A stretch of DNA of 20,714 bases, taken from a virus. The notes beneath the pieces are model-generated. The model was not told the origin of the DNA. It saw only the letters and a program-made list of their open reading frames with translations, and did not search any database. Positions 6,390-19,675 of the stretch are shown piece after piece (positions within the stretch are counted from its first letter, which is position 1; every line of letters begins with the position of its first letter). The DNA lies in IMG/VR virus record IMGVR_UViG_3300032304_000405, positions 1 through 20,714 of that record. One strand, written 5' to 3'. The translations under genes and the position numbers were made by a program.

Positions 6390-9300
6390 ATGGCACGATA
6401 CATAGAACTACCTGACGGCAGCGCCCTTGAATTAAAGAAGGGGCAGTCGCCCGTAGAAGGAATGATGGCCGCTCGCCAGTTGTTCCCCGAGTTGTTTAAA
6501 AGTGAAGACAAACCCAAAGAAGACACCAAAGGTTTTAAAGCTGCCGCGGCCGCAGGCTTTGAGCGTTTAAAAGGTGAGACCGCACTGACTGCGGCTAAGC
6601 TCGGGCTAAAGGATATAGACGAAGCAGAAGCGTATCGAAAAGAAAAACAGGCGTCGGCGGCCAGACGCTTCACGCCCACTGAAGACAGCTTCATAGAGTC
6701 CCCATTTCAAAACGTTAAAGAATTACTGGGCGGGTCTGTTCCGTACATGTTGGCTCCTGCCGCCGCAGGTCTTGCGGCTTTAGCCGCCCCAGTATCAGCA
6801 CCAGTTGCGGCCGGCTTAGGTTTGTTGGGTGCTGGCGCTGTGTCTACTGGCCAGTTCACAGGTTCCAACCTTGCACGTCAAATGGACACCGGCAAGTCTT
6901 TGGAAGAAACAAGTCTAGGAAAAGCTGCAGCAGCCGCTGTGCCACAAGCGTTAATTGACACCGCTGCCATGGCGTTGTTGCCCGGTGTGGGCAAGCTGTT
7001 CGGCTCTGTGGGCTCTAAGCTTACGACTGAACAAGCCAAGGCTATTGCTTCCCAAACACTCACTCGAACAATTGCAGACTACACCGCCAAGACGGGCGTA
7101 GTGATGGGCCGAGAGGGTGTAACAGAAGCCACGCAACAACTGCTTGAGCGCCTACAGGCAGGCTTGGAGATTACCGATCCTGAAGCCCGTAAAGAGTATA
7201 TTGACAGCTTTATTGGCGGCGCTGTATTAGGCGGTGTGCTTGCACCTGCTGGCCGTGCTTTTGAGCGTGGGGGAGCCAAGCGGCAAGCAGCGGCGGCTGA
7301 CCGAGCCGAAGCTTTGCAACTAAGTTCCGAAAAGCTACAGCAACAAAGAACCCAAGAAGAAGCGGCTGCGCAGGCACTAGAAGCAGAAAGACAATCGCCT
7401 GCGTACGCAACAAAACTCGGCACAGATTACGAAGCACTGCTGAAAGACTATCAAGCCAAACGCTCAGTTCTTAAAGACCCCGGCAAAAACGCTACGCCTG
7501 AAGAAAAGGCCGTGTACAAAGAAGCTAAAGCCGAAGTCAGCGCCCTGTACGACCAACTAGCCGAGTTAACTCCTGAGTACCGACGAACCAAACCCATACG
7601 TGCGCAAGAAGCAGAGAAAGCGCGTATTGCCGGTATGTCGCCTTACGACTACATGTTGGAGCAGACTGGCGAAGTTTCTTCAGCCCCCACACCAAAAGGT
7701 ACGGCTGATCTTGCAGGCTACTATGAACAGCAGATAGCCAATCCACAACAAGAAGTTATGGACTACGCTGCAAAACAACTACAGCTAGCCAATACACAAC
7801 AACTAGCTAACGAAAAAGAACCGACGTTAGCCGCTAAAGACTACGTTGCATACTTGATGGTTAATCCTTCAATGGCCGCACAGGTTTTGCAATCCCGCAC
7901 AACACTACCCGGACTGACAAAACAACAGAGAAATTTGGTCTTTGCTAGTCTTGAACAGCAGTTAGAAGCACTTCGTGCAGAGAACGCAGTAAAAGCCGCG
8001 CGGCCTAATCAGGCTCGTTTAGAAACAGTTGAAGACGAAGAGCAAGCCGCACTTGAAGCTAGCCGTGCAGCCGATGCTCAAGCCGCAGAGAAAGCCGCCT
8101 TACTTGAGCGTATGACGCCTGAGATGCAGGCACTACAGCGAATGAAACGCGCCCCGTCTCCAATGACCGAGAACTTGGGGCTATTTGGAAACGAAGAAGC
8201 TACACCATCGACATCTGCTGCGTTTGGTCAGTTGCAACAACGCTTGCAGGGTATACCCTTAGAGGAAGGCACACTGCCTACAGCCGAGGACGTTGGCCCC
8301 GAAGGTGAACAGCAGCGCGTAATTAAACGCGTGTCAGATGCCGAGTTTAAACTGCGCCCCGGCACTACTTCTGTCCCAGCCAATAGAAAAAAAGAAACAG
8401 AAGCGCGTATTAAATCAATTCAGGAAACACAAGATTTAACGCCTGAACAAATAGACGTTTTGCGTACGGCATTTAATGCTCCTACATCAACAAAAAATGC
8501 AATCCTTGATCGTATTAACCGCGTACTGTCTACATACCAGCTGTCCCCTGAAGCAGCCGCTTTTTTGCGCCGTGCTGAACAAGTAGTACCGGAAGCAGAC
8601 GCAAAAATTAAACAAGCCACACAAGTTTTAGCAAATCAAGAAAACATAGCTGGTGATATTGTTGCAAGCAAAGGGTTGGTAAAAAATGTATCGGAGTCGC
8701 AGGGCTTCCTTACACTACTTGACCGACAGTTGACAAAGATTGAGAGCGGCGCAGAGGGTGTGCCGCGTAAAGGTGCTGGCCGTCCAGTAACTCTCAAGAC
8801 CTTCCCGTTGGACATGACGGGCGCTACAGCCGCCAAAGCCAGCACAACCACGCCAACTGAGCCGTTTAAGAAAGATGTTGATAGTATTACTGGGGCTGCC
8901 CCCGGCCAAGCCGCATCGGTATCTCAGACTGAGATGTATGCCCAGCGTGAGCGTCTTGAGCGTACAGGCAAGCCCGGCAAGCTACCCGGTTTTGTAACCC
9001 AGCCTAAAGAAGCAGAACGCACAACTGGCGAAGCAGCCCAGCCCACCGTTGAGAAACGTGGGCAAGAGATTAACAAGCCGGTGTATCGCATCAACCCTGT
9101 AACAGGCAAACAGGAACTTGTGTCTGGAACCATACGTGGTAAGAGTGCTGAAGCCTTACCGCTGTCTTTACAGGCTGAGTTAGAGCCGCTAGTGCGTTTG
9201 TCCGAGACTGTTCGTGACGAGCAAGCAGGTCAGTTGCCTTTGTTTGGTGCAGCCGATGAACGTAGCCGTGTACAGAAAGCCGAACGCCGCGGCATTGAAG

Positions 9301-12300
9301 CTGGCCCTAGCCTAGACATAGGCGCCCGTCCAGACGTTGAGTCGTTCCAACGATTCATGAACAGCCCCTACGTTCGTAAGCTCAAGCAAGACATGAAGCA
9401 GTCTGAGAAAGACTTAGCTCCTGTCCGTGCGTTCCTGAGCAGGGCTTTGCCGCGTCTGAAACAGATGCTGAAAGACAGCAAAGCGACCACTGCCCGTATG
9501 AGCAAGATCAAGAACTGGACTAAGTTCTTAAAAGAAAACCAAGAGTTGACTGCGTTCCAGACTAACACTGAGAACATGGTGCTGAAGATGAACAATCTGA
9601 AGCTCAGCGTCAGTGACCTGAACGCCCGTATTAAATCGTACGAACAGGCTAAAGAAGATCTAATCAAAGAAGCCAATCGCGCCGGCGTACGCGCCAGAGG
9701 CGGCGCTCCAGAAATAAAGTTTTTCAAAGAACTAGACGACTTAATTTCGTTGCATCAAGAAGCTAAGGCTGAATATACTCAGACCAAAAGCGCACTAGAC
9801 TTAGTGCGTACGCAAATTAAAGTGCTGGTGGGTGAGCAGCGTTTGGCTGAACTTAAAGCAACAACAGACCCGCTGGCTAAATCTAATGCCGCCGCTCAAG
9901 ACGAGATAAAACGTTTGCAAGAAGCCGTACGCACAGCACAGGCTGAAGTTGGCGAAGCTGAAACCAAAGAACGTCAAGCCGCCGCAGACAAAGCACAGGC
10001 CGTGCAGGGCGCTAAAGCTGGCTCTATACAAGCGTTGGAGAAAAAAATCTCTGACGAACGTGCCCGCCGTTTGAATGTGGCGCTATCTGGTTTCTCGCAA
10101 GGCGTACAAGTACGCGCTTTGTCTGCCGCAGAAAGAGATGCCCGTGATCGTGGGTTGACAGCAGATGCTGCTGGTGAAGTTAAGTACAACAACGATCTGT
10201 ATAACAAGCCACTGCTATCTTTGATTCTGGAACTTGGCCGTATTGATGAACAGTTAAGAGAAACTGAAGCCACTGTACTGGCGGCTAAAAGAAAGTCTAG
10301 TGAGTATGCCGGAGGTGTAGAAACGGTATTACCACTTACACCAGAGCTTAGGGGTTCAGGCTACGCTATGGCGTTTAAAGGCATGATGTCTGCCATTCGT
10401 CTGCAAAGCCGTTTGTCTGTTCGTAAGGGTTTACTAGAAGACGCAATTAACTTTATGCGTGCACGTAATGTGCCGCTCAAAAAAACCCTTGGCGCAGAAC
10501 CAGAAGTCCGTTCGGCCAGCATCGAAGAACAAGACGCTATCGATCAGTACATAGATCAAGTGCAAGAGCTGGGCAAAGCAACAGACCGCCTTGCTGACCT
10601 AAATACTAAACGCGATATAGCTATTAAAGAAGGAAAGACCAAAACTGTTGCGCAACTCAACGACCAAATTGACCAACTTAATACTGAAATTTCTGTTGGC
10701 ACAGAAGATAAAGCTAGGCTTGCTATTGCTCTACAAGGTCGTGTGTCGGCTGGCGCTCGTCAAACTACCAGTGCCCCCGCTAAATTCCGTACAGGGACAG
10801 CCGAATCTAAGCGTAACGTTGGTTCTGTCAAACAGCCGTTGGTTGAGCAACGCAACATCAAAGCGCCATCCGTGGCGCAAGCGGTAGCCGAAGCTAATGC
10901 GTTTGCCGAGCAACGTGCGGCCGGTGAAAAAGATCTAACCAAGGCTCAGTTAGCGGCCATTGAAGCTGAACGTCAAGCTGAGTTCCAAGTTATCTTGGAG
11001 CGTCGTGATGAAGAGTTGACCAATAAGTTGAACGACGCCAAGGATCGTTTGACCGTAATGCAAGCAAGAGCCGCTCGTCCCCCCACTGGTAGAAGCAATA
11101 TGCCTTCTCTTGAAGACATTAAAAATGCTGAACTTGATGTTGCAGACTACGATTGGGAACGCCGTGCGGTTCGTCAAGAACTTGAAGCCGTTAAGAAAGC
11201 GCTGTATCAGTCAGCCAACGAAGCTGACATCAGAGCCGCAGAAGAAGCCGCTTCTGAACCCGTTGAGAAAGAAGCCAAGCCTCGTGGCCGTCGACGTAAG
11301 GCTACGGAAGAAGATGTGTATGGCGAGGCTACCCGTACAGAAGGCGCGGTGGAAGACGTTTACTTTGATGAGCAAGGTGGGCTGGATTTTTCTCGCGGGC
11401 CTACGACTGATCCTAGTACGGTTAACACAGTCAGCACAGAACTGAAAAAATATTTTAAGAATTTATCGCGTATAAAAATTTACAGTTCTGTTGACGAATT
11501 AATAAAGGCCAACCCTCAGTACAAAAAACTTATTCCAGCAGACGCTAGAGGTTTTGTAGACACCGCAGGTAACAAAGCGTTTTTAATTGCTGAGAACATT
11601 GACCGAGGACAAGCGCTGGGCGTTTTGCTTCACGAAGTAGGGGCACACGTAGGGCTTAAAAATATTTTGGGTGAGAGTCAGTACACCGGAATGGTCAATG
11701 CGATTAAAGGCTGGGCTAAAAAGAACGACGGCTCTTTAGAGTCTGTTGTTGCCAAAGCAGCATTAGAGCGAGTAGAGGCAGCAAAAACAGACGCCAAATA
11801 CAGAGACGATGAAACTCTTGCGTACGCCATTGAAGAAGCGGTTAAAGCTGGCGTTATCCCAAATCAAACTAAGGGGGTTTTAGGTACGTGGTTAAGCAGG
11901 ATTGCAGACGGGTTCCGTAAACTGTTAACAAAATTTGGCATGGATTTGAAATCCTTTGACGCGCAGGGGTTAGTTGATATTGCGTATGGGGCAGCGCAAA
12001 TGGAAATGCGTGCAATGCCTGAAGGTATGAGTCGCCGTACTTTTTTACGCGGCGCGGTTTCTGCTGTTGGGCAAATGTATCTGCCGGCAGTTAACAAGGG
12101 TTTGTCCATTAACGCTAAAGCAAAATTGTTTGATGCAACACTGGATGCCGCCGACGCATGGTTTAGCACCGTAGTTGGCATGGCTAAAACCCCAGCTTTA
12201 CGAAACATGTTAAAAAATTATTCTTTTGACATAGATAACGAACTATTTTCTGAAGCGCTGTACAACGTGGATTCTGATGTAGAAGGTACAGACAGCCTGT

Positions 12301-15176
12301 ATTCTCACATGTTCATGAGGAGCTATGGTAACGGCGATTCAACTGAATCTTTAATAGATTTGTTAGAAAGCAAACCTGACTCGGTTGAAAGACTACAAGC
12401 GGCTGTTTTAGATATGCGTTCACAGCTTATTGCCGCAGTAGAAAAACTACCTAAAAAAGCAAATGGAGAAATTGCAGAAGATAAATTGCCCGCAGTTGGG
12501 GACTTATTATTTTCCCGCAAAGTCGCTGCTGAACCAGACAACGCGTTGATTGCGTTGTCAAAACAGATTACCACGCAGCCTAAGACGCTCAAAGAAAAGC
12601 TAAGCAACAACCTTGCTTTGCAAGCCGAGATGCAAGCGGTGGACATGCGTGCTGGACTGCGCGACACCCTTAAGTTTGGTGACGATAATTTGTTTACCCA
12701 AGCCATGTATCACGTACGCAAGGCTGAACAGAAGATGGCGCAGATGTTTACCGTCATGAATAGCGGCCCGTTAGTTGCGTACAGAGACTCTAAAGGTTTT
12801 GTAGGCTACCGCAGTTCCAACGAGAACAGCGCTCGTGAAGTGTTTGATGCAATCGCCGACATCCCCGTAGACGATCCACAGTTAAAGACTAACATTGCGC
12901 AGGCTTACATGGTTGCTCAGCGTACCGCCAACAAAGGGTTACCAAAGCTAGACCTTGGCGAGTTAGGTATTACGCAAGAACAACTGACTGCGGCTTTGGC
13001 TGCGGCTGATGCCGACCCTGCTTTAAAGAAAGCGCTAGAGAATGTGCGTAGTAAGTACAACGCATACAACAGAGGCATGATTGAGTTTCTTGCTAGCACT
13101 GGACGCATCACCAAGAAGGTGGCGGCGGATTTGCTTAAGGAAGGCGACTACGTGCCTTTCTATCGCGTTGACAAAAACGGCAACGCAAATTTGGTTTTTA
13201 ACAACAACATCACGTTTAACGTCGGAGACATCCGCCGTCAGCCATACCTTGCAGAACTCAAAGGCGGCGACACAAAGTTGCTACCACTGAACGAAGCTAT
13301 TCAGCGCAACACGTTGCTGCTGACAGACATGGCGCTGACCAACAATGCTGCTAAGAGTGTGGCCTATGGCCTGCAAGCACTGGGCAAAGGCAAGGGCCCT
13401 ATCGATCCCAAGACAGGCAAACCCACGGACTTGATGGCCATTAAAAAGGGTCTAGGCCCTGCCGATGCTAAAGTGATTCGGTTCTACCAAGAGCCTGACC
13501 CAAACAAACCCGACGATAAAGGTGAGCGCCACATTGTGGTGGATACCAAAGGCACTGCCGCCGAAGGCATTCCTGCCGAGCTAGTGGTGCAGAGTTTGGA
13601 AGGCGCAAGCCTTGCGCTCCCCGGGTTCTTTAAATTAGCTGGGGCGGCTGCTGATCTGCTACGCGCTGGTGTGACCCGCACACCTTTGTATATTGCTCGC
13701 AAACTATTGCGCGAACCGATGGCCGCATCTTTTACTGGCGGCCTAGACGAAAACGTATTTTCAGCAGTGTTCAAAGCAGGCTCTGAGTTTGTACGCATGA
13801 GCGCGGGCAATAGTGCTATGCAAGCCAAGTTGATTGAAAAAGGATTGATCCAGTCCAACATCTTTGCAGGCGATATGTCTGACATGAAGAAGATGGCGCT
13901 TCAGCTTGCCAGCGGTAAAGACCAAAGTGCTTTAGACAAGGTGATAGCCGCAGCCGACCGGTACGCGATGCGTGCTGATGCTGCCACACTAGCGCTGGTG
14001 CTTAAAAACGCTGAAGCTAACGGCTTGTCCGAAGTCGAGGCTGACATGGCCACGATGGAGTCAATGAACTTCTATAAGCGCGGGTTGTCCCCCACGCTGC
14101 AATACGCCAGTCGTTTAATACCGTTCTTTAACGCGCAGATCCAAGGCTTGAACGTGTTGTACAAAGCAGCCCGTGGCAAGATGCCTTTTGAGGAACAACA
14201 GCAAATTAAACGCAAGTTCTTTAACAACGCTGTGTTGCTGATGGGCACTGGTATTGTGTACGCCATGGCCATGGAAGACGACGAAACCTTCCGTAACGCT
14301 CGCCCACGGGACAAGTACGCCAACTTCTTCTTGCCTATTCCGGGCGTGGATGAGCCGCTCAAACTGCCCATCCCGTTTGAAGCCGGTTACTTCTTCTCGC
14401 TGGCTGTGGCCGCAGTAGACGGCATGCGTGCTGAAACTGATGGCAAGGCGCAGTTCCAAGCTCTGCGAGATTTGTTCTTGGGATCTATCCCCGGCTACTC
14501 GTCTATGGGAGTGCCGGCACTTGTTAAGCCTGTGTTTGAAGTGTGGACTGATAAGAACTTCTTAACTGGAGGCCCTGTCGAGCCTCGCCGCATGCAAGGA
14601 TACAACACTGAAGAGCGCTACCTTGCGACCACTACAGAGTTGGCCAAGCAGATGAGTAGCCTGTTACCAGTCCTGTCTCCGATCCAAATAGAACACATCG
14701 TTCGCGGTTATCTGGGCGTGTTGCCTTTGGCGGCAGCGGCAGCGGCCAACGGTTTGTTTGAACGCGAAGGCAAGGGAGAAAAGCCTGAAGGCCGCGCATC
14801 TGACTTGCCTTTAATTGGTACAGCGTTCCAAAAGAAGTACGGTGGTGGCGATGCCGATGTGGTGTACCGCGAAGCACAAGAGGCGGTTGAAGCCAATGCT
14901 ACATTTAAGAAAATACTTAGCGAAGGTCGTCGTGAGGAGGCTGTGGCCTACCGCGAGAAAAACAAAGTGGAGCTGGCCATGGCTCCTGCCGCAGGGCAGT
15001 ATCGCCAAATCATTGGGCGTATCAACACCGACATCCGCCGCGTGCAGGAGCGTGGCGACTTGACGGCAGAAGAGAAGCGGTTGCGCCTTGATGCGCTAGA
15101 AAAAGCCAAGCAAGACCGAGCAGATGCTTTTATTCGGCAGTCGCGTGCTGTGGAGGAGCGGCTTGGCGGCGGTTAA
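6390..15176 (+). CDS. Giant polyvalent protein with zincin-like segment and LPD38-type C-terminus
   Basis: A single uninterrupted 2928-aa frame. Visible layout: a short basic/acidic N-terminus starting MARYIELPDG; hydrophobic helices (about 112-150 and 188-205); charged coiled coils (about 300-400); disordered linkers with LGLFG (596-600) and QLPLFG (948-953); a long coiled-coil region (about 983-1250); a zincin-like segment (about 1680-1870) with HEVGAH at 1748-1753 and DETLAYAIEEAV downstream; a Tat-like SRRTFLRG (1881-1888); and a long C-terminal region including YASRLIPFFNAQIQGLN (from 2572), a hydrophobic helix near 2610-2628 and a final charged coiled coil, which I match to LPD38 (large polyvalent protein associated domain 38). 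Polyvalent proteins are described in phages and conjugative elements as multi-domain proteins thought to be delivered with DNA and to protect or prepare it in the new host. Here delivery is inferred. Its place at the end of the virion operon resembles T7 gp16 or N4 gp50. No strong Shine-Dalgarno is seen before the ATG. Confidence 0.85.
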   Translation: MARYIELPDGSALELKKGQSPVEGMMAARQLFPELFKSEDKPKEDTKGFKAAAAAGFERLKGETALTAAKLGLKDIDEAEAYRKEKQASAARRFTPTEDSFIESPFQNVKELLGGSVPYMLAPAAAGLAALAAPVSAPVAAGLGLLGAGAVSTGQFTGSNLARQMDTGKSLEETSLGKAAAAAVPQALIDTAAMALLPGVGKLFGSVGSKLTTEQAKAIASQTLTRTIADYTAKTGVVMGREGVTEATQQLLERLQAGLEITDPEARKEYIDSFIGGAVLGGVLAPAGRAFERGGAKRQAAAADRAEALQLSSEKLQQQRTQEEAAAQALEAERQSPAYATKLGTDYEALLKDYQAKRSVLKDPGKNATPEEKAVYKEAKAEVSALYDQLAELTPEYRRTKPIRAQEAEKARIAGMSPYDYMLEQTGEVSSAPTPKGTADLAGYYEQQIANPQQEVMDYAAKQLQLANTQQLANEKEPTLAAKDYVAYLMVNPSMAAQVLQSRTTLPGLTKQQRNLVFASLEQQLEALRAENAVKAARPNQARLETVEDEEQAALEASRAADAQAAEKAALLERMTPEMQALQRMKRAPSPMTENLGLFGNEEATPSTSAAFGQLQQRLQGIPLEEGTLPTAEDVGPEGEQQRVIKRVSDAEFKLRPGTTSVPANRKKETEARIKSIQETQDLTPEQIDVLRTAFNAPTSTKNAILDRINRVLSTYQLSPEAAAFLRRAEQVVPEADAKIKQATQVLANQENIAGDIVASKGLVKNVSESQGFLTLLDRQLTKIESGAEGVPRKGAGRPVTLKTFPLDMTGATAAKASTTTPTEPFKKDVDSITGAAPGQAASVSQTEMYAQRERLERTGKPGKLPGFVTQPKEAERTTGEAAQPTVEKRGQEINKPVYRINPVTGKQELVSGTIRGKSAEALPLSLQAELEPLVRLSETVRDEQAGQLPLFGAADERSRVQKAERRGIEAGPSLDIGARPDVESFQRFMNSPYVRKLKQDMKQSEKDLAPVRAFLSRALPRLKQMLKDSKATTARMSKIKNWTKFLKENQELTAFQTNTENMVLKMNNLKLSVSDLNARIKSYEQAKEDLIKEANRAGVRARGGAPEIKFFKELDDLISLHQEAKAEYTQTKSALDLVRTQIKVLVGEQRLAELKATTDPLAKSNAAAQDEIKRLQEAVRTAQAEVGEAETKERQAAADKAQAVQGAKAGSIQALEKKISDERARRLNVALSGFSQGVQVRALSAAERDARDRGLTADAAGEVKYNNDLYNKPLLSLILELGRIDEQLRETEATVLAAKRKSSEYAGGVETVLPLTPELRGSGYAMAFKGMMSAIRLQSRLSVRKGLLEDAINFMRARNVPLKKTLGAEPEVRSASIEEQDAIDQYIDQVQELGKATDRLADLNTKRDIAIKEGKTKTVAQLNDQIDQLNTEISVGTEDKARLAIALQGRVSAGARQTTSAPAKFRTGTAESKRNVGSVKQPLVEQRNIKAPSVAQAVAEANAFAEQRAAGEKDLTKAQLAAIEAERQAEFQVILERRDEELTNKLNDAKDRLTVMQARAARPPTGRSNMPSLEDIKNAELDVADYDWERRAVRQELEAVKKALYQSANEADIRAAEEAASEPVEKEAKPRGRRRKATEEDVYGEATRTEGAVEDVYFDEQGGLDFSRGPTTDPSTVNTVSTELKKYFKNLSRIKIYSSVDELIKANPQYKKLIPADARGFVDTAGNKAFLIAENIDRGQALGVLLHEVGAHVGLKNILGESQYTGMVNAIKGWAKKNDGSLESVVAKAALERVEAAKTDAKYRDDETLAYAIEEAVKAGVIPNQTKGVLGTWLSRIADGFRKLLTKFGMDLKSFDAQGLVDIAYGAAQMEMRAMPEGMSRRTFLRGAVSAVGQMYLPAVNKGLSINAKAKLFDATLDAADAWFSTVVGMAKTPALRNMLKNYSFDIDNELFSEALYNVDSDVEGTDSLYSHMFMRSYGNGDSTESLIDLLESKPDSVERLQAAVLDMRSQLIAAVEKLPKKANGEIAEDKLPAVGDLLFSRKVAAEPDNALIALSKQITTQPKTLKEKLSNNLALQAEMQAVDMRAGLRDTLKFGDDNLFTQAMYHVRKAEQKMAQMFTVMNSGPLVAYRDSKGFVGYRSSNENSAREVFDAIADIPVDDPQLKTNIAQAYMVAQRTANKGLPKLDLGELGITQEQLTAALAAADADPALKKALENVRSKYNAYNRGMIEFLASTGRITKKVAADLLKEGDYVPFYRVDKNGNANLVFNNNITFNVGDIRRQPYLAELKGGDTKLLPLNEAIQRNTLLLTDMALTNNAAKSVAYGLQALGKGKGPIDPKTGKPTDLMAIKKGLGPADAKVIRFYQEPDPNKPDDKGERHIVVDTKGTAAEGIPAELVVQSLEGASLALPGFFKLAGAAADLLRAGVTRTPLYIARKLLREPMAASFTGGLDENVFSAVFKAGSEFVRMSAGNSAMQAKLIEKGLIQSNIFAGDMSDMKKMALQLASGKDQSALDKVIAAADRYAMRADAATLALVLKNAEANGLSEVEADMATMESMNFYKRGLSPTLQYASRLIPFFNAQIQGLNVLYKAARGKMPFEEQQQIKRKFFNNAVLLMGTGIVYAMAMEDDETFRNARPRDKYANFFLPIPGVDEPLKLPIPFEAGYFFSLAVAAVDGMRAETDGKAQFQALRDLFLGSIPGYSSMGVPALVKPVFEVWTDKNFLTGGPVEPRRMQGYNTEERYLATTTELAKQMSSLLPVLSPIQIEHIVRGYLGVLPLAAAAAANGLFEREGKGEKPEGRASDLPLIGTAFQKKYGGGDADVVYREAQEAVEANATFKKILSEGRREEAVAYREKNKVELAMAPAAGQYRQIIGRINTDIRRVQERGDLTAEEKRLRLDALEKAKQDRADAFIRQSRAVEERLGGG

Positions 15177-15354
15177 ACATAACGCCTAGCTTGCCGTCAA
15201 GGATGCCCACGCTAGCGTGGGCATCTAGTATCCGCAAGGAGAAGGCTTTCTTTAAGCCCCACTCTTTCATGGCTTCAGTGTCGAGGCAGGGGATAAAGAA
15301 CCCCTGCCCCTTTTCAACTTTCTCCCACGGAAGGCGCAGTAAGGAGTACTTCAT
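15130..15354 (-). CDS. Small conserved-looking phage protein of unknown function
   Basis: A 74-aa frame at the end of the replication operon. It starts inside the last codons of the primase-helicase (41-base overlap) and ends inside the 3' end of the convergent giant gene (47-base overlap). The protein has a pattern I recognise from small unannotated phage proteins: a basic start, GQGFFIPCLDTE near residues 16-27, a helix with EWGLKKAFSLRIL, and a strand pair ending DGKLGVMFNRR. That pattern, plus tight operon placement, argues that it is real and not a shadow frame. There is only a weak GAAG before the ATG, so translation may be coupled to the primase. A perfect 24-bp palindrome encodes its DAHASVGI segment. 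Function unknown. Confidence 0.62.
   Translation of the reverse strand: MKYSLLRLPWEKVEKGQGFFIPCLDTEAMKEWGLKKAFSLRILDAHASVGILDGKLGVMFNRRQAAPPQHATAE
15202..15225. repeat. Perfect 24-bp palindrome at the convergent gene junction
   Basis: GATGCCCACGCT is followed directly by its exact reverse complement, giving a 24-bp palindrome 25 bases after the stop of the giant gene. As RNA from either strand it can form a stem of 10 bp with a CUAG loop. There is no U-tract on either side, so it is not a classical intrinsic terminator. It may act as a bidirectional transcription barrier, an mRNA 3'-end stabiliser, or a protein-binding site. On the - strand it lies inside the 74-aa coding frame. Confidence 0.8.
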
Positions 15355-18205
15355 CGGCTTCGATAATCTCGCGTCTGATTTTCATAACTGTTACCCGCAT
15401 CTGCGGCCCTTTGGTCTTGGCCATCATATCTTTCTTAAGATACTCTACGTTGTACAGTTGTTCAAGCTGGCGCTTAAATGATGAATACCCGAAGCTCATG
15501 GTGGCGCAGTACGCCTTGAGCAGTTGCTCCTCGATGAAGTAGTCGATGTGGTTGGGGATCGGCTCATGCTCCACCCGCCCGAACACCTTGTTGCGTGTAA
15601 TCGACAGATCGATGTCCTTGCCACTACCCAGTTCAGCCATGAGGCCGCCCTTGCTAGGCTTAATCACCACAAAACTGCCGTAGTTGTCACGGGTATAGGC
15701 GTTCAGTACATCTACAGCGGTGCGCACACTGCTCTTCATACTGGCTCGCATATAGTCCACAGCCTTTTTGTAGGAGTTCAGAATGTGGCGGTAGGGTATC
15801 TCGGCCACACCTAGCTCTTTAAACGCTTTAAGGGCGCATATAGAAGCCCCCACGCCAGCCATCCAGAAGCGCTCATCGTTGGTTGCCTTGAACTCGGTAT
15901 ACATACCGGCAACGGCTTCGCCAACTATCTTAGGGAACTGGTCAACGTTGTCAGCAAGGTACTGAGCCAAGGCGTAACCCGCCACGCCGTAGTTGTGCTG
16001 TAAAGACTTGATGATCTCAATCTCATGGGGTTCCCACTTCAACTCGTCTTCAAGCACAAACTCTAGCAAGCGGCGTAGTTCACCTTCCGATGAATGAGTA
16101 CGCCCACCAGTCAAGTAGTCCACGATGTGGGTATTGGAAGACATCAACGCATTGGTCATCCATGTCGACAAGTTCAGGCGCTCTTTGTTGGAGCCAGACT
16201 CCATACGCTCTTTGCCACGGCCTTCGGTCATGTCCAGTAGGAACTCAGGCAACCACTCGAAGTCGTCTCGGTTCTTGGATGTGATCTCGTCAGTGATAAG
16301 CGGGTGGCTGTTAAGCAGGCCCAAGCGTTGTTGCATAGCAACAGGCGATGTGCTCTTGCCTGTGCGGTAGTGGGTGGGGTGTCCCCAGACCGATGCTGCA
16401 GCCTCCAGCGCCAGCGTCTTACCTGTACCAGATTCGGTACTGGCACAGTGGTACGTCATGCCGTAGATGCCTGTAAAGCGCATGAAAGGTGCGCCAGCAC
16501 CGGCAAGCAAAACGGCTAGGTGATCCCACATCTTCTTGGCGATCAGCATGTCGATGAACGCACGCCATGCTTCCATAGTGCCGCGAGGCTCGGTGTTCTT
16601 GGTGATGTTCTCCAAGCCCGGCATTGGGACTTTGACAGGGGGTTTACCCTTAGTAAAGATACGACCCGCAAATACATACGAGTTGTCAGGTTGCCAACCA
16701 TAGCTGTCTGGAACTTTGATTGGTGTTTTGTTAGTGCTAGATTCTTCCACGCATGCCCTCACATATTCAAAAAGGTTTTTGTCGTTGTTGTGGCCAAAAG
16801 AGGCCACGATGTTTTGACTCGCCAGTGCTTTGACTGTCTCGTCCTTGCTGACCACGGCTCTTTGCGGCATGACTACGTTGATCGCCCCTTCGGGTCTGAG
16901 CGCAATCATGTGCACAGTGTGGTCGTTGTTGCTGTTGAGTATGTCCACTACAAACAATTCGTAGGGCAGCAGCATCACTTGCTTCTTTGTCTTAACGCCT
17001 TCGTCATCCTCGACCATACGCTCCATAAAGATGCCACCATTGGTGCCATAGGCATAACCACGAGGCGGTGTTGGGCGTGTGACCTTGACGACTTCTTTCT
17101 CCGTGACTGTGCTGTCACTCGTTAGCTTGACCTCAATTTCTTTCTCCTCTACTTCCACAGACAACTCACGTCCAAGGATCAGGGGGTTAGTTATTTTTCC
17201 CCAGTGCGGGCATGTTGGGCACACGCCGGGGTTCTCTGAGTCCATCTTGATACAGGGATATGGGCCCTTGATGCTTTGCAGCTTTTGATTCATGCGCTCA
17301 GGCTCATAGGGGTGCATCTGGCTAAGCCAGACAGCCGCCTTGTTGCCGTCTTCACAGACCTTAGTCCATGAAAGCAAGCCCCTCCAGATCGGCTCCATGC
17401 CCTCTTCTGTCGCATGTTCTACGTAGTGCCCCAACTGACCACAGCCACGCCCTTGCTGAGTCGCCAACCAAATTGGTTTGAACTTGGTTATGCTGTTCTC
17501 AAACAGTTTGACGCTAGTCGCTGAAGGCGCGGCAGACGGGCGAGCCCCCGGCAAATCTAGTTTCGGCACGGCCTGCGGCTCGTAGATTGACCCAGACAGC
17601 TTCTCCCTGATGAGGGTAGCCACGGCATCAAAATCAAAGTTATCGCCTTCAGTCAGTATGCGCACGGGGCGCGGTGTTGCGTACTTCTTCTTGAAGTTGG
17701 TTGTCTCGGGTACACGCAATACACGGGCGGCATCAGCCGTCACAGTCATATCAATCGCCAAGCTCTCCTGTTTGCATAGGCGCTTGAAGTTCTCGGCCAC
17801 AGGTTTCCAAGAGTCCACCGGCACAGCCGCATGCAATGGCCAGTAGCAGTGCAGACCGCCACCAGAACCAACAACATAGGGCGTACCCAAGGCTCCTAAG
17901 CCCGTCTTCTCCAAAAACGCATTGAGTGCAAAGGCGGCATCTTTCTTCGATGCGTACCCATCCATGTCAATGAACAGTGATTTCACATACTGCGCATTTG
18001 CAGCCTGTCGATTGTCTTCAATGCCAAAGGTAGCCAAGGCAAAGTAAACATCCAACTTACTGCTGTGCCAGCGCTTGATAGGCGCTGTTGTTTCGTCGAG
18101 TGCGTCAACAAAGACGTGCTCTTTCGCTCTAGTAAGTTCCGCCACACAATACCGGCCAAATTCTGGCGGCGGCAGAACAACCGCTAAAAACTCAAGCGGA
18201 GTCAT
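15314..18205 (-). CDS. Primase-helicase fusion (AEP-type primase plus ATPase helicase)
   Basis: A 963-aa replication protein. The N-terminal part looks like an archaeo-eukaryotic-type primase: SLFIDMDGY gives the acidic pair D80 and D82, GSGGGLHCYW gives H119, and MTVTADAARVLRVP (153-166) supplies a conserved-looking Arg region. A Cys cluster (C318, C329, C332, with H334) may bind zinc. A DUF927-like segment (about 500-540, YGWQPDNSYVFAGRIF) precedes a P-loop ATPase with Walker A ESGTGKT (591-597) and a likely Walker B LITDE (636-640), as in phage superfamily 3-like helicases. The protein would unwind DNA and lay primers at the phage replication fork. AAGGA five bases before the ATG supports the start. 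It lies 17 bases downstream of the clamp-motif microprotein and overlaps the 74-aa gene. The primase and ATPase assignments are confident; the exact helicase family is less so. Confidence 0.9.
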   Translation of the reverse strand: MTPLEFLAVVLPPPEFGRYCVAELTRAKEHVFVDALDETTAPIKRWHSSKLDVYFALATFGIEDNRQAANAQYVKSLFIDMDGYASKKDAAFALNAFLEKTGLGALGTPYVVGSGGGLHCYWPLHAAVPVDSWKPVAENFKRLCKQESLAIDMTVTADAARVLRVPETTNFKKKYATPRPVRILTEGDNFDFDAVATLIREKLSGSIYEPQAVPKLDLPGARPSAAPSATSVKLFENSITKFKPIWLATQQGRGCGQLGHYVEHATEEGMEPIWRGLLSWTKVCEDGNKAAVWLSQMHPYEPERMNQKLQSIKGPYPCIKMDSENPGVCPTCPHWGKITNPLILGRELSVEVEEKEIEVKLTSDSTVTEKEVVKVTRPTPPRGYAYGTNGGIFMERMVEDDEGVKTKKQVMLLPYELFVVDILNSNNDHTVHMIALRPEGAINVVMPQRAVVSKDETVKALASQNIVASFGHNNDKNLFEYVRACVEESSTNKTPIKVPDSYGWQPDNSYVFAGRIFTKGKPPVKVPMPGLENITKNTEPRGTMEAWRAFIDMLIAKKMWDHLAVLLAGAGAPFMRFTGIYGMTYHCASTESGTGKTLALEAAASVWGHPTHYRTGKSTSPVAMQQRLGLLNSHPLITDEITSKNRDDFEWLPEFLLDMTEGRGKERMESGSNKERLNLSTWMTNALMSSNTHIVDYLTGGRTHSSEGELRRLLEFVLEDELKWEPHEIEIIKSLQHNYGVAGYALAQYLADNVDQFPKIVGEAVAGMYTEFKATNDERFWMAGVGASICALKAFKELGVAEIPYRHILNSYKKAVDYMRASMKSSVRTAVDVLNAYTRDNYGSFVVIKPSKGGLMAELGSGKDIDLSITRNKVFGRVEHEPIPNHIDYFIEEQLLKAYCATMSFGYSSFKRQLEQLYNVEYLKKDMMAKTKGPQMRVTVMKIRREIIEADEVLLTAPSVGES

Positions 18206-18222: not shown

Positions 18223-18408
18223 TTACTGGAACAGATCTAATTGCTTGGGATCTATTGGCAAGCGCTCATCGCCCGGAGTCAAAGCTTCCAAGCGTCTGAT
18301 GAGTTCAAGCTGAAAGTCCTTGGGTAACCCGTTGGGAAATTCAATCATCTCTGCGCTGAAGTAAATCAGCTCTTTCGTGGTGAGGGATCGAGGTTGTATT
18401 CTTTGCAT
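18223..18408 (-). CDS. 61-aa protein with C-terminal sliding-clamp-binding motif
   Basis: A small charged, helical protein beginning MQRIQPRSLTTKELIYF and ending PIDPKQLDLFQ. The body has a TTKEL...LPKDFQLELIRRLEAL pattern seen in small unannotated phage replication-region proteins. QLDLF matches the consensus QL[SD]LF by which bacterial polymerases and regulators bind the DnaN sliding clamp, and it sits at the free C-terminus after a Pro/Asp-rich spacer, where such motifs are usually exposed. It is therefore a candidate recruiter, or inhibitor, of the host or phage clamp. This is inference from a short motif. An upstream ATG at 18420 would add four residues, but GGAG lies only correctly for the ATG at 18408. 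The gene overlaps the end of the HTH gene by 43 bases and sits 17 bases before the primase-helicase. Confidence 0.75.
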   Translation of the reverse strand: MQRIQPRSLTTKELIYFSAEMIEFPNGLPKDFQLELIRRLEALTPGDERLPIDPKQLDLFQ

Positions 18409-18659
18409 ATTTTTCTCCATGCCTCGTCTGCTGAATGCGAGGTCTTCATTATGTGAGTTAAGAAATCGACGCGGTCACGATAGGCTACAAACACTTCCGT
18501 GCCTGTAAACCAGTTGTAGACAGTCTGCCGAGAGACGCCAAGCGCATAGGCAATCTTCGTGACGGGGAAGTCAAGATGGATCGCCCAACGCCCAAGCTGG
18601 TTGCCCAGAGACTTGGGTGTCTTAGCTACTTCGTCAATAATTTTTTGAGAATAGGCCAT
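18366..18659 (-). CDS. Small helix-turn-helix protein
   Basis: A 97-aa protein with a clear helix-turn-helix at about 31-53: FPVTKIAYALGVSRQTVYNW, where ALGVSRQTVYNW is the turn and recognition helix. N-terminal residues form a charged helix, and the C-terminal third (DEAWRKICKEYNLD) is probably another helix. It likely binds DNA, as a regulator of early phage genes or as a replication accessory protein. The operon position between the acidic-tailed protein and the primase does not decide which. No Shine-Dalgarno is visible before the ATG; instead a GC-rich hairpin ends eight bases upstream, so its translation may be weak or controlled by RNA folding. It overlaps the start of the 61-aa gene. 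Confidence 0.8.
   Translation of the reverse strand: MAYSQKIIDEVAKTPKSLGNQLGRWAIHLDFPVTKIAYALGVSRQTVYNWFTGTEVFVAYRDRVDFLTHIMKTSHSADEAWRKICKEYNLDPSPRKS
18409..18418 (-). promoter_or_regulatory. Ribosome binding site deciding the 61-aa start
   Basis: GGAG (18418 down to 18415) followed by AAAAAT lies at ideal spacing before the ATG at 18408. The alternative ATG at 18420 has GAGG only one base away, which is too close to work well. Confidence 0.6.
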
Positions 18660-18691: not shown

Positions 18692-19675
18692 TTACTCATC
18701 GTCCCAATCAGCAACGATGTCGGCCAGCTTGTTCTTCTTAGCTGGAACGGACTCAACCTTGGCCGCGGCTTTGCGCACTTCGGGTTCTTCTTCAGCCTCC
18801 ACTTCAGCGGCTTTGGCTTTCTTGGCCTTGGTTGCTTTGACTTCAGCAATGGCTTGAGCATCGTCCTCATCCAGCAGATCACCAAGGGTCTTGGTGCTAG
18901 GCGCTTTGCCAGACAGGGCAAGCGGTGCGGGTGAGGCAACGCCATCAGCAAAGGCAGGGGTAACAGCTACGGCCTTCTCTGCATCCTTAGAGTTGGCTTG
19001 GTTCTGCGCAGACTCATACTCAGCATCAGTCAACCAACGCACAGGGGCAAAGACAATCTTTGGAGACTCAGCTTGTGTATCAAACTTCATGCGTGTGACG
19101 ATGGCGTCCAAGTTAACAGGCGGTGTCTGCGCGGCCATGTAGCGAGCGTATGCTTGCAGTGGGCGCTTCTCGCCGTCTTCCTTGCCGAAAATAGATGTAG
19201 CAGGCAAAGTAACTTGTAACACGTCACCATCCGGATTGTTAGCCAACACGACAGCCAAGCGCTGTTGGTAGCGGCATGCACGGCTTTGACCATTACCAGA
19301 CCCAGCGATGTTCTGTGGGCATGTAGCACAGCTTGATGACTGCTTGTTCTTCACGTTGGAGTCAGGCTTCTCACCATCAGCAGACGTGCAGTCAGGGGGT
19401 GCGGCTGCAGCATCTTTATCGTAGCCACCAGCGTAGAAAATACGGCTGACCTTTGGGGCAGCTTTGACCACGATCACATCCAAGTGACGCTCATCAATCG
19501 ATGCGATCTCTTTGCCGTTAGACAACAGTCTGAACACACCGCCCTTGATAGAGACGCGTTTCATGCCACCGCCAGAACCTGCACCACCAGCCAAGGCTAG
19601 CGTGGTTGCTGACAGGACTGCATTCTTAGCAAATGCAGGGACGTTTGAGGGGTTGAACATTGCAATATTGCTCAT
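18692..19675 (-). CDS. Putative ssDNA-binding protein with acidic C-terminal tail
   Basis: A 327-aa protein. The N-terminal two thirds have beta-rich stretches (MKRVSIKGGVFRLLSNGKEI, 38-57; LDVIVVKAAPKVSRIFYAGG, 65-84; DVLQVTLPATSIFG, about 151-164) that could form an OB-like or related fold. Four cysteines (C96, C116, C119, C134) are spaced as a possible zinc site. Residues about 240-315 are a Lys/Glu/Ala-rich, low-complexity linker, and the protein ends in a short acidic tail, ADWDDE. A folded core, flexible linker and acidic tail is the layout of phage and bacterial SSB proteins, and the gene lies in a replication operon with a helicase and primase. I see no diagnostic SSB family motif, so the function is inferred. 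A weak TGGAAA precedes the ATG, and the gene starts 11 bases after the 133-aa gene. Confidence 0.85.
   Translation of the reverse strand: MSNIAMFNPSNVPAFAKNAVLSATTLALAGGAGSGGGMKRVSIKGGVFRLLSNGKEIASIDERHLDVIVVKAAPKVSRIFYAGGYDKDAAAAPPDCTSADGEKPDSNVKNKQSSSCATCPQNIAGSGNGQSRACRYQQRLAVVLANNPDGDVLQVTLPATSIFGKEDGEKRPLQAYARYMAAQTPPVNLDAIVTRMKFDTQAESPKIVFAPVRWLTDAEYESAQNQANSKDAEKAVAVTPAFADGVASPAPLALSGKAPSTKTLGDLLDEDDAQAIAEVKATKAKKAKAAEVEAEEEPEVRKAAAKVESVPAKKNKLADIVADWDDE

Follow-up and report, generated by a model that had tools for sequence, protein, structure and literature searches.

The replication operon of an uncultured freshwater phage encodes a 61-residue microprotein that, judging from the pattern of its sequence and those of its relatives, very probably binds the sliding clamp (DnaN) of the bacterial host. 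The protein ends in a bacterial-type clamp-binding motif, QLDLF, and selection preserves this tail as the remainder of the sequence varies. The microprotein belongs to a new family of ~60-residue proteins of uncultured freshwater phages, although the clamp-motif anatomy itself is already known from other systems. Regarding its function, a role as an adaptor recruiting the host clamp for phage replication is favoured over a role as a blocker of host replication, and we consider the chances that the adaptor reading is correct to be about even.

The microprotein gene and its operon

The window, that is, the whole stretch of DNA analysed, is the 20,714-base virus record IMGVR_UViG_3300032304_000405, and its relevant features are collected in Table 1. 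Translation of positions 18408 to 18223 on the minus strand gives the 61-residue product MQRIQPRSLTTKELIYFSAEMIEFPNGLPKDFQLELIRRLEALTPGDERLPIDPKQLDLFQ, followed by TAA. On the plus strand, this interval contains stops and is not open. The 61-residue open reading frame is real. Its ATG is kept in homologues, most of which also carry the GGAG element. The mechanically called frame in the ORF table begins four codons earlier and would yield 65 residues. This longer start was rejected because in several relatives a stop lies just ahead of it or another codon replaces its ATG, and because the spacing of the GGAG fits the 61-residue start.

The operon around the microprotein gene is a phage replication operon. 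The microprotein gene directly precedes the primase gene among the loci listed, and in the window the two are separated by 17 nt. In loci listed for the family, the HTH gene likewise adjoins the microprotein gene. Further genes upstream encode a 133-aa protein weakly similar to Mu Gam, as well as a helicase fragment whose C-terminal domain is SNF2-like. An earlier note, made from the DNA letters, had described a 61-residue product ending in QLDLFQ whose gene adjoins that of the primase-helicase. The translation and the short intergenic gap bear out both statements, and the strand, which the note had not given, is minus. The acidic tail of the 327-aa protein is kept in relatives and recalls the C-termini of SSB proteins; the counterpart in Pseudomonas phage Rollin ends in AFAGWDD.

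Table 1. Positions of the microprotein gene, its predicted parts and its neighbours in the window, and of a second small protein in a related contig
Feature	Position	Strand	Basis or remark
61-aa microprotein gene	18223..18408	minus	ATG 18408, stop 18225-18223 (TAA)
Ribosome-binding site GGAG	18415..18418	minus	6 nt before ATG, inside the HTH gene; sequence
Helix 1 of body, residues 11-21	18346..18378	minus	AlphaFold pLDDT >90
Helix 2 of body, residues 30-43	18280..18321	minus	AlphaFold pLDDT >90; pN/pS 0.34
Variable linker, residues 44-55 (TPGDERLPIDPK)	18244..18279	minus	Conserved Asp three residues before Q; low AlphaFold confidence
Clamp-binding motif QLDLF, residues 56-60	18229..18243	minus	Predicted from sequence; followed by Q61 and the stop
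43-nt overlap, microprotein start with HTH gene end	18366..18408	minus	ORF table; pS lowered to 0.36, codons 2-14
97-aa helix-turn-helix (HTH) protein, upstream neighbour	18366..18659	minus	Weak HTH matches
963-aa primase-helicase (DUF927), downstream neighbour	15314..18205	minus	PF06048 3.7e-22; phrog_8841 DNA primase/helicase 3.5e-27
327-aa protein, acidic C-terminus ADIVADWDDE	18692..19675	minus	SSB-like tail by inspection; phrog_27714 (unknown function)
KQLRLL protein	L245:14156-14362 (G001)		Also in G002, G004-G006, G017 and G058

A protein family of uncultured phages

A close search returned ten relatives at a level of at least 84%. About 240 loci were gathered through the neighbouring gene, from three starting points, together with a profile of the microprotein, and all of them are uncultured viral contigs with the sole exception of one metagenome bin. 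An HMM run over all collected loci gave 261 matches, representing 124 distinct proteins. The bin, which is the only genome match, is labelled Armatimonadetes and contains a phage contig; it was not trusted as an indication that Armatimonadetes are the hosts.

No Pfam, PHROG or NCBIfam profile matched the 61-residue protein above threshold, in line with the earlier view that no described family has such a layout. When 56 family members were searched against profiles, only phrog_4785, of unknown function, was returned, for five members (best 4.9e-5). Neither the family nor its layout is described in the open-access literature (subscription papers and preprints were outside the search). Among 50,697 records of isolated phages, tblastn with three family members gave chance-level matches or none, the former including one weak match in a staphylococcal phage. 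The closest isolate primases, those of Pseudomonas phage Rollin and Rhizobium phage RHph_TM3_14A (~25% identity), lie in operons of similar order from which the microprotein gene is absent.

Agreement with beta-clamp binding rules

Peptides that bind the beta clamp begin with Q. Leu is best at the second position, which is nonetheless tolerant, and the third accepts any residue with a slight preference for Asp; the fourth is Leu or Met, and the fifth Phe, Leu or Ile (PMC11139829). The consensus QLDLF ranks among the strongest clamp-binding pentapeptides (PMC11139829). In the microprotein, QLDLF occupies residues 56-60 of a tail modelled at low confidence, and thus follows the pattern of beta-clamp-binding (CBM) proteins, namely QLxLF or Q-aliphatic-x-[LM]-[FL] in an accessible tail.

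The substitutions seen in the family follow the same rules, which strengthens the original identification of the motif as the bacterial consensus. Across 94 sequences, position 2 is L in 78, Q in 4, K in 4, R in 3, A in 2, and P, I or G in one each, the minority with K, R, Q, P or G departing from the rule of a strictly aliphatic residue. The third position holds D (46), E (39), N (5), R (3) or K (1). The residues that follow the F vary freely and include L, K, Q, M, V, A, LQN and LNQ.

Structure prediction is consistent with an exposed tail. An AlphaFold2 model built with 56 sequences contains two high-confidence helices, at residues 11-21 and 30-43, and a tail of pLDDT ~58-74 that is weakly helical at 54-60. 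For L242, which has one of the most divergent bodies, helices are predicted at 11-23 and 32-47, and the tail is unstructured. The tail is therefore neither confidently folded nor buried in these models, as expected for the free C-terminal motif behind a flexible spacer that had been read from the letters. A fold search of the model against the PDB gave nothing better than E 4, and the best result of a profile search of PDB sequences (E 0.035, a designed repeat protein) is at chance level.

Conservation of the tail

The QxxLF ending, with 0-3 residues following the F, is present in most of the family (95 of 124 distinct homologues). This ending is commoner in the family than expected by chance. 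Among the 1,342 genes (≥50 aa) called in 18 related contigs, only 9 end in this way, eight of them belonging to the microprotein family, while shuffled ends predict 0.73 in all. The remaining 29 homologues have wholly different tails, and near-miss or half-decayed motifs are absent.

Within the gene, pN/pS is lowest at the five motif codons, where it is 0.18 in a set of 65 sequences free of indels and 0.20 in all 94 unambiguous sequences; the 94-95 sequences were picked by the QxxLF pattern, and the fixed Q, L and F are thus partly circular. Independent of that choice are the lack of near-miss tails among the 29 and the mapping of the losses to about three lineages. In the set of 65, pN/pS is 0.34 for helix 2, 0.67 for linker codons 44-52, 0.37 for codons 53-55 (D-P-K), and 0.33 for the N-terminus, where conservation is confounded because the overlapping HTH gene also lowers pS. 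In the set of 94, values of 0.52-0.72 outside the motif compare with 0.20 within it. The tail, as the earlier note anticipated, is by this measure the most conserved part of the protein in lineages that keep it.

Constraint on the DNA itself is not the reason for this conservation, since all six Leu codons are used for the fourth residue of the motif among the 94 sequences. The motif is also retained between proteins that otherwise have little in common. Pairs whose bodies are only 10-40% identical still share ~80% of the motif, and L235, L238 and L242, with almost unrelated bodies, all end in DPRQLRLF.

Exchange of bodies and loss of tails

Two body types, SAEL and FAED, occur in a set of 41 close relatives. 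Mapped onto the primase tree, they replace one another at least 4-5 times, and the clamp tail is present throughout. L070 has a different body type from L062 and L064, yet the primases of all three are almost identical. The small gene appears to be exchanged by recombination. Because bodies are swapped between near-identical primases, the body is not co-evolving with the neighbouring primase, and the initial proposal of a tether between the host clamp and the primase-helicase has to be downgraded.

The state of the motif changes three times on the primase tree: in a large clade comprising L164 and relatives, in L075 with L088, and in L079. The method does not distinguish gain from loss, and with two long outgroup branches the root is unsure; loss nevertheless seems the simpler reading, because both branches of the deepest divergence among these phages include motif-bearing members. 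The body of the large tail-less clade is under strong purifying selection (pN/pS 0.20-0.23). A body that is kept under selection without its tail must have a tail-independent role, something not easily reconciled with a protein that acts purely as a clamp blocker. The earlier note had regarded homologues that keep the body and lose QL.LF as evidence against its reading; such homologues do occur, in three lineages, but the motif is the most strongly constrained part of the protein wherever it is kept. In L164, L165 and their relatives, the place of the clamp tail is taken by DEGFADG-type GxxxG repeats, with one member weakly matching Yae1_N (E 0.0013).

A second small protein, helical, 66-68 aa long and ending in KQLRLL, is found in 6 of 10 tail-less contigs versus 1 of 39 with the tail, a co-occurrence that counts as one event because the tail-less contigs form one clade. 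The four tail-less contigs without it seem, by position, not to reach its usual region. Its homologues end in QLRLL, QLRLI, QLRMFR or, after an insertion, KQSRLF, and these endings mostly fit the clamp-motif rules.

Replication context and a possible adaptor

A family-A DNA polymerase is encoded in 20 of 21 longer related contigs. These 21 contigs, which are possibly incomplete genomes, contain no bacterial-type beta clamp, no delta-prime/DnaX-type clamp-loader domain (DNA_pol3_delta2) and no thioredoxin, and the control genomes gave matches in each of these searches. Neither Q-aliphatic-x-[LM]-[FL] nor a six-residue clamp motif was found in 17 family-A polymerases. T7-type family-A polymerases function without a sliding clamp. 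The absence of a phage clamp alone consequently does not demand the use of a host clamp.

In the adaptor reading, the QLDLF tail would dock in the protein-binding pocket of host DnaN, and the two-helix body would bind a partner in the phage replication machinery. Candidate partners are the polymerase, the primase-helicase, the HTH protein, or a host factor. In this way, the host clamp would be supplied in trans to the replisome of a phage whose family-A polymerase has no clamp motif. The occurrence of a motif-less polymerase beside a small protein that is hardly more than a motif accords with an adaptor acting in trans, and a tail-less body under purifying selection suits a protein made up of a partner-binding body and an accessory tail. 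A more extended scenario is conceivable but doubtful: phages with motif-less polymerases may have outsourced clamp binding to a swappable microprotein whose tail is kept, and where the tail is lost, the 68-aa protein ending in KQLRLL, QLRMF or KQSRLF might take over.

If the adaptor reading is correct, the phage borrows the sliding clamp of its host through a separate, tiny protein rather than through its polymerase, a simple hijack of host processivity. The family would then offer a concrete case in which to examine whether host clamps serve family-A phage polymerases, as well as a natural phage ligand of the QLxLF type. Should the protein be a blocker instead, it would represent a genetically encoded, pocket-binding DnaN inhibitor from phages, unlike Twort gp168.

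Alternative roles and known systems

A blocker of host replication, a role that the earlier note had also raised, would fill the DnaN pocket and compete with host polymerases. This has a modest chance of being right and is not the best fit, given the tail-less bodies that are kept. QLDLF would be well suited to the task, being among the strongest clamp-binding pentapeptides (PMC11139829), and there is a bacterial parallel in SocB of Caulobacter, which works by placing a clamp motif in the clamp pocket (PMC9690074). Phages are known to shut off host replication via DnaN or the clamp loader (PMC3594737), and a phage with its own polymerase might spare the host clamp. A pure blocker, however, needs its tail, whereas three lineages keep the body without one, under purifying selection. 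The gene also lies in the middle of a replication operon, flanked by the HTH and primase genes, rather than among early small genes. SocB itself is the toxin of a bacterial toxin–antitoxin pair and stops elongation. Twort gp168 and G1 gp240 are likewise small proteins, by which phages target host DnaN (PMC3594737), and the Twort inhibitor had been put forward as a precedent. This comparison does not hold, since gp168, compared here by description only, binds the DNA channel of the clamp rather than the motif pocket (PMC11139829), which is a different mechanism.

T4 gp33/gp55 and plasmid RK2 TrfA appear to be closer analogues than Twort gp168, which is a poor one. Like the microprotein, the T4 proteins are small phage proteins in which a flexible, divergent linker joins the body to a widely kept C-terminal clamp epitope (PMC2988020). 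This shared anatomy, together with the 43-nt overlap between the microprotein and HTH genes, raises the idea of clamp-coupled transcription, in which the protein would link the clamp with either RNA polymerase or the neighbouring HTH regulator and so tie late transcription to replication. Such a role is improbable. Profile and fold searches revealed no sigma-like or RNA-polymerase-binding feature, although a body may bind RNA polymerase without showing such a match, and the control of a search for a phage single-subunit RNA polymerase was empty, so that this search carries no information. Moreover, the clamp of T4 is the phage's own: gp33 and gp55 bind gp45 and RNA polymerase, using an LDFL-type motif (PMC9690074), unlike the bacterial-type QLDLF(Q) tail of the microprotein. 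TrfA is replicon-encoded and uses a clamp motif to recruit the host beta clamp for its own replication (PMC4980987). It differs in that it is a complete DNA-binding initiator and carries its motif internally, whereas the microprotein has 61 residues, two helices, a C-terminal motif and no detected DNA-binding domain. It is also improbable that the tail is conserved for a reason other than clamp binding, for instance as a peptide resembling an SSB C-terminus, a degradation tag, or a packing element. The tail is indeed short, acidic-hydrophobic and C-terminal, and residues 54-60 are weakly helical in the AlphaFold model. A fixed free end would nevertheless be expected of an SSB-like tip or C-degron, and the residues after the F vary; the tail is unstructured in the most divergent model; and clamp pockets select for the combination seen here, tolerance at position 2 with invariant Q, L and F (PMC11139829).

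Similar motifs in other proteins

A scan for KQLDLF followed by a stop returned 19 stretches, most of which do not make credible ORFs; they include a few small, unrelated ORFs. Two unrelated small phage ORFs, in L304 and L319 (79 and ~77 aa), likewise end in KQLDLF. In the window, a giant protein of 2928 aa (6390-15176), probably an ejected virion protein, contains an internal QLPLF (DEQAGQLPLFGAADE), which could be a further clamp motif or a chance occurrence. Homologues of the giant protein in related contigs carry QxxLF-like peptides, including QKALF, QLDLF, QQELF and QMDMF, in linker-like stretches.
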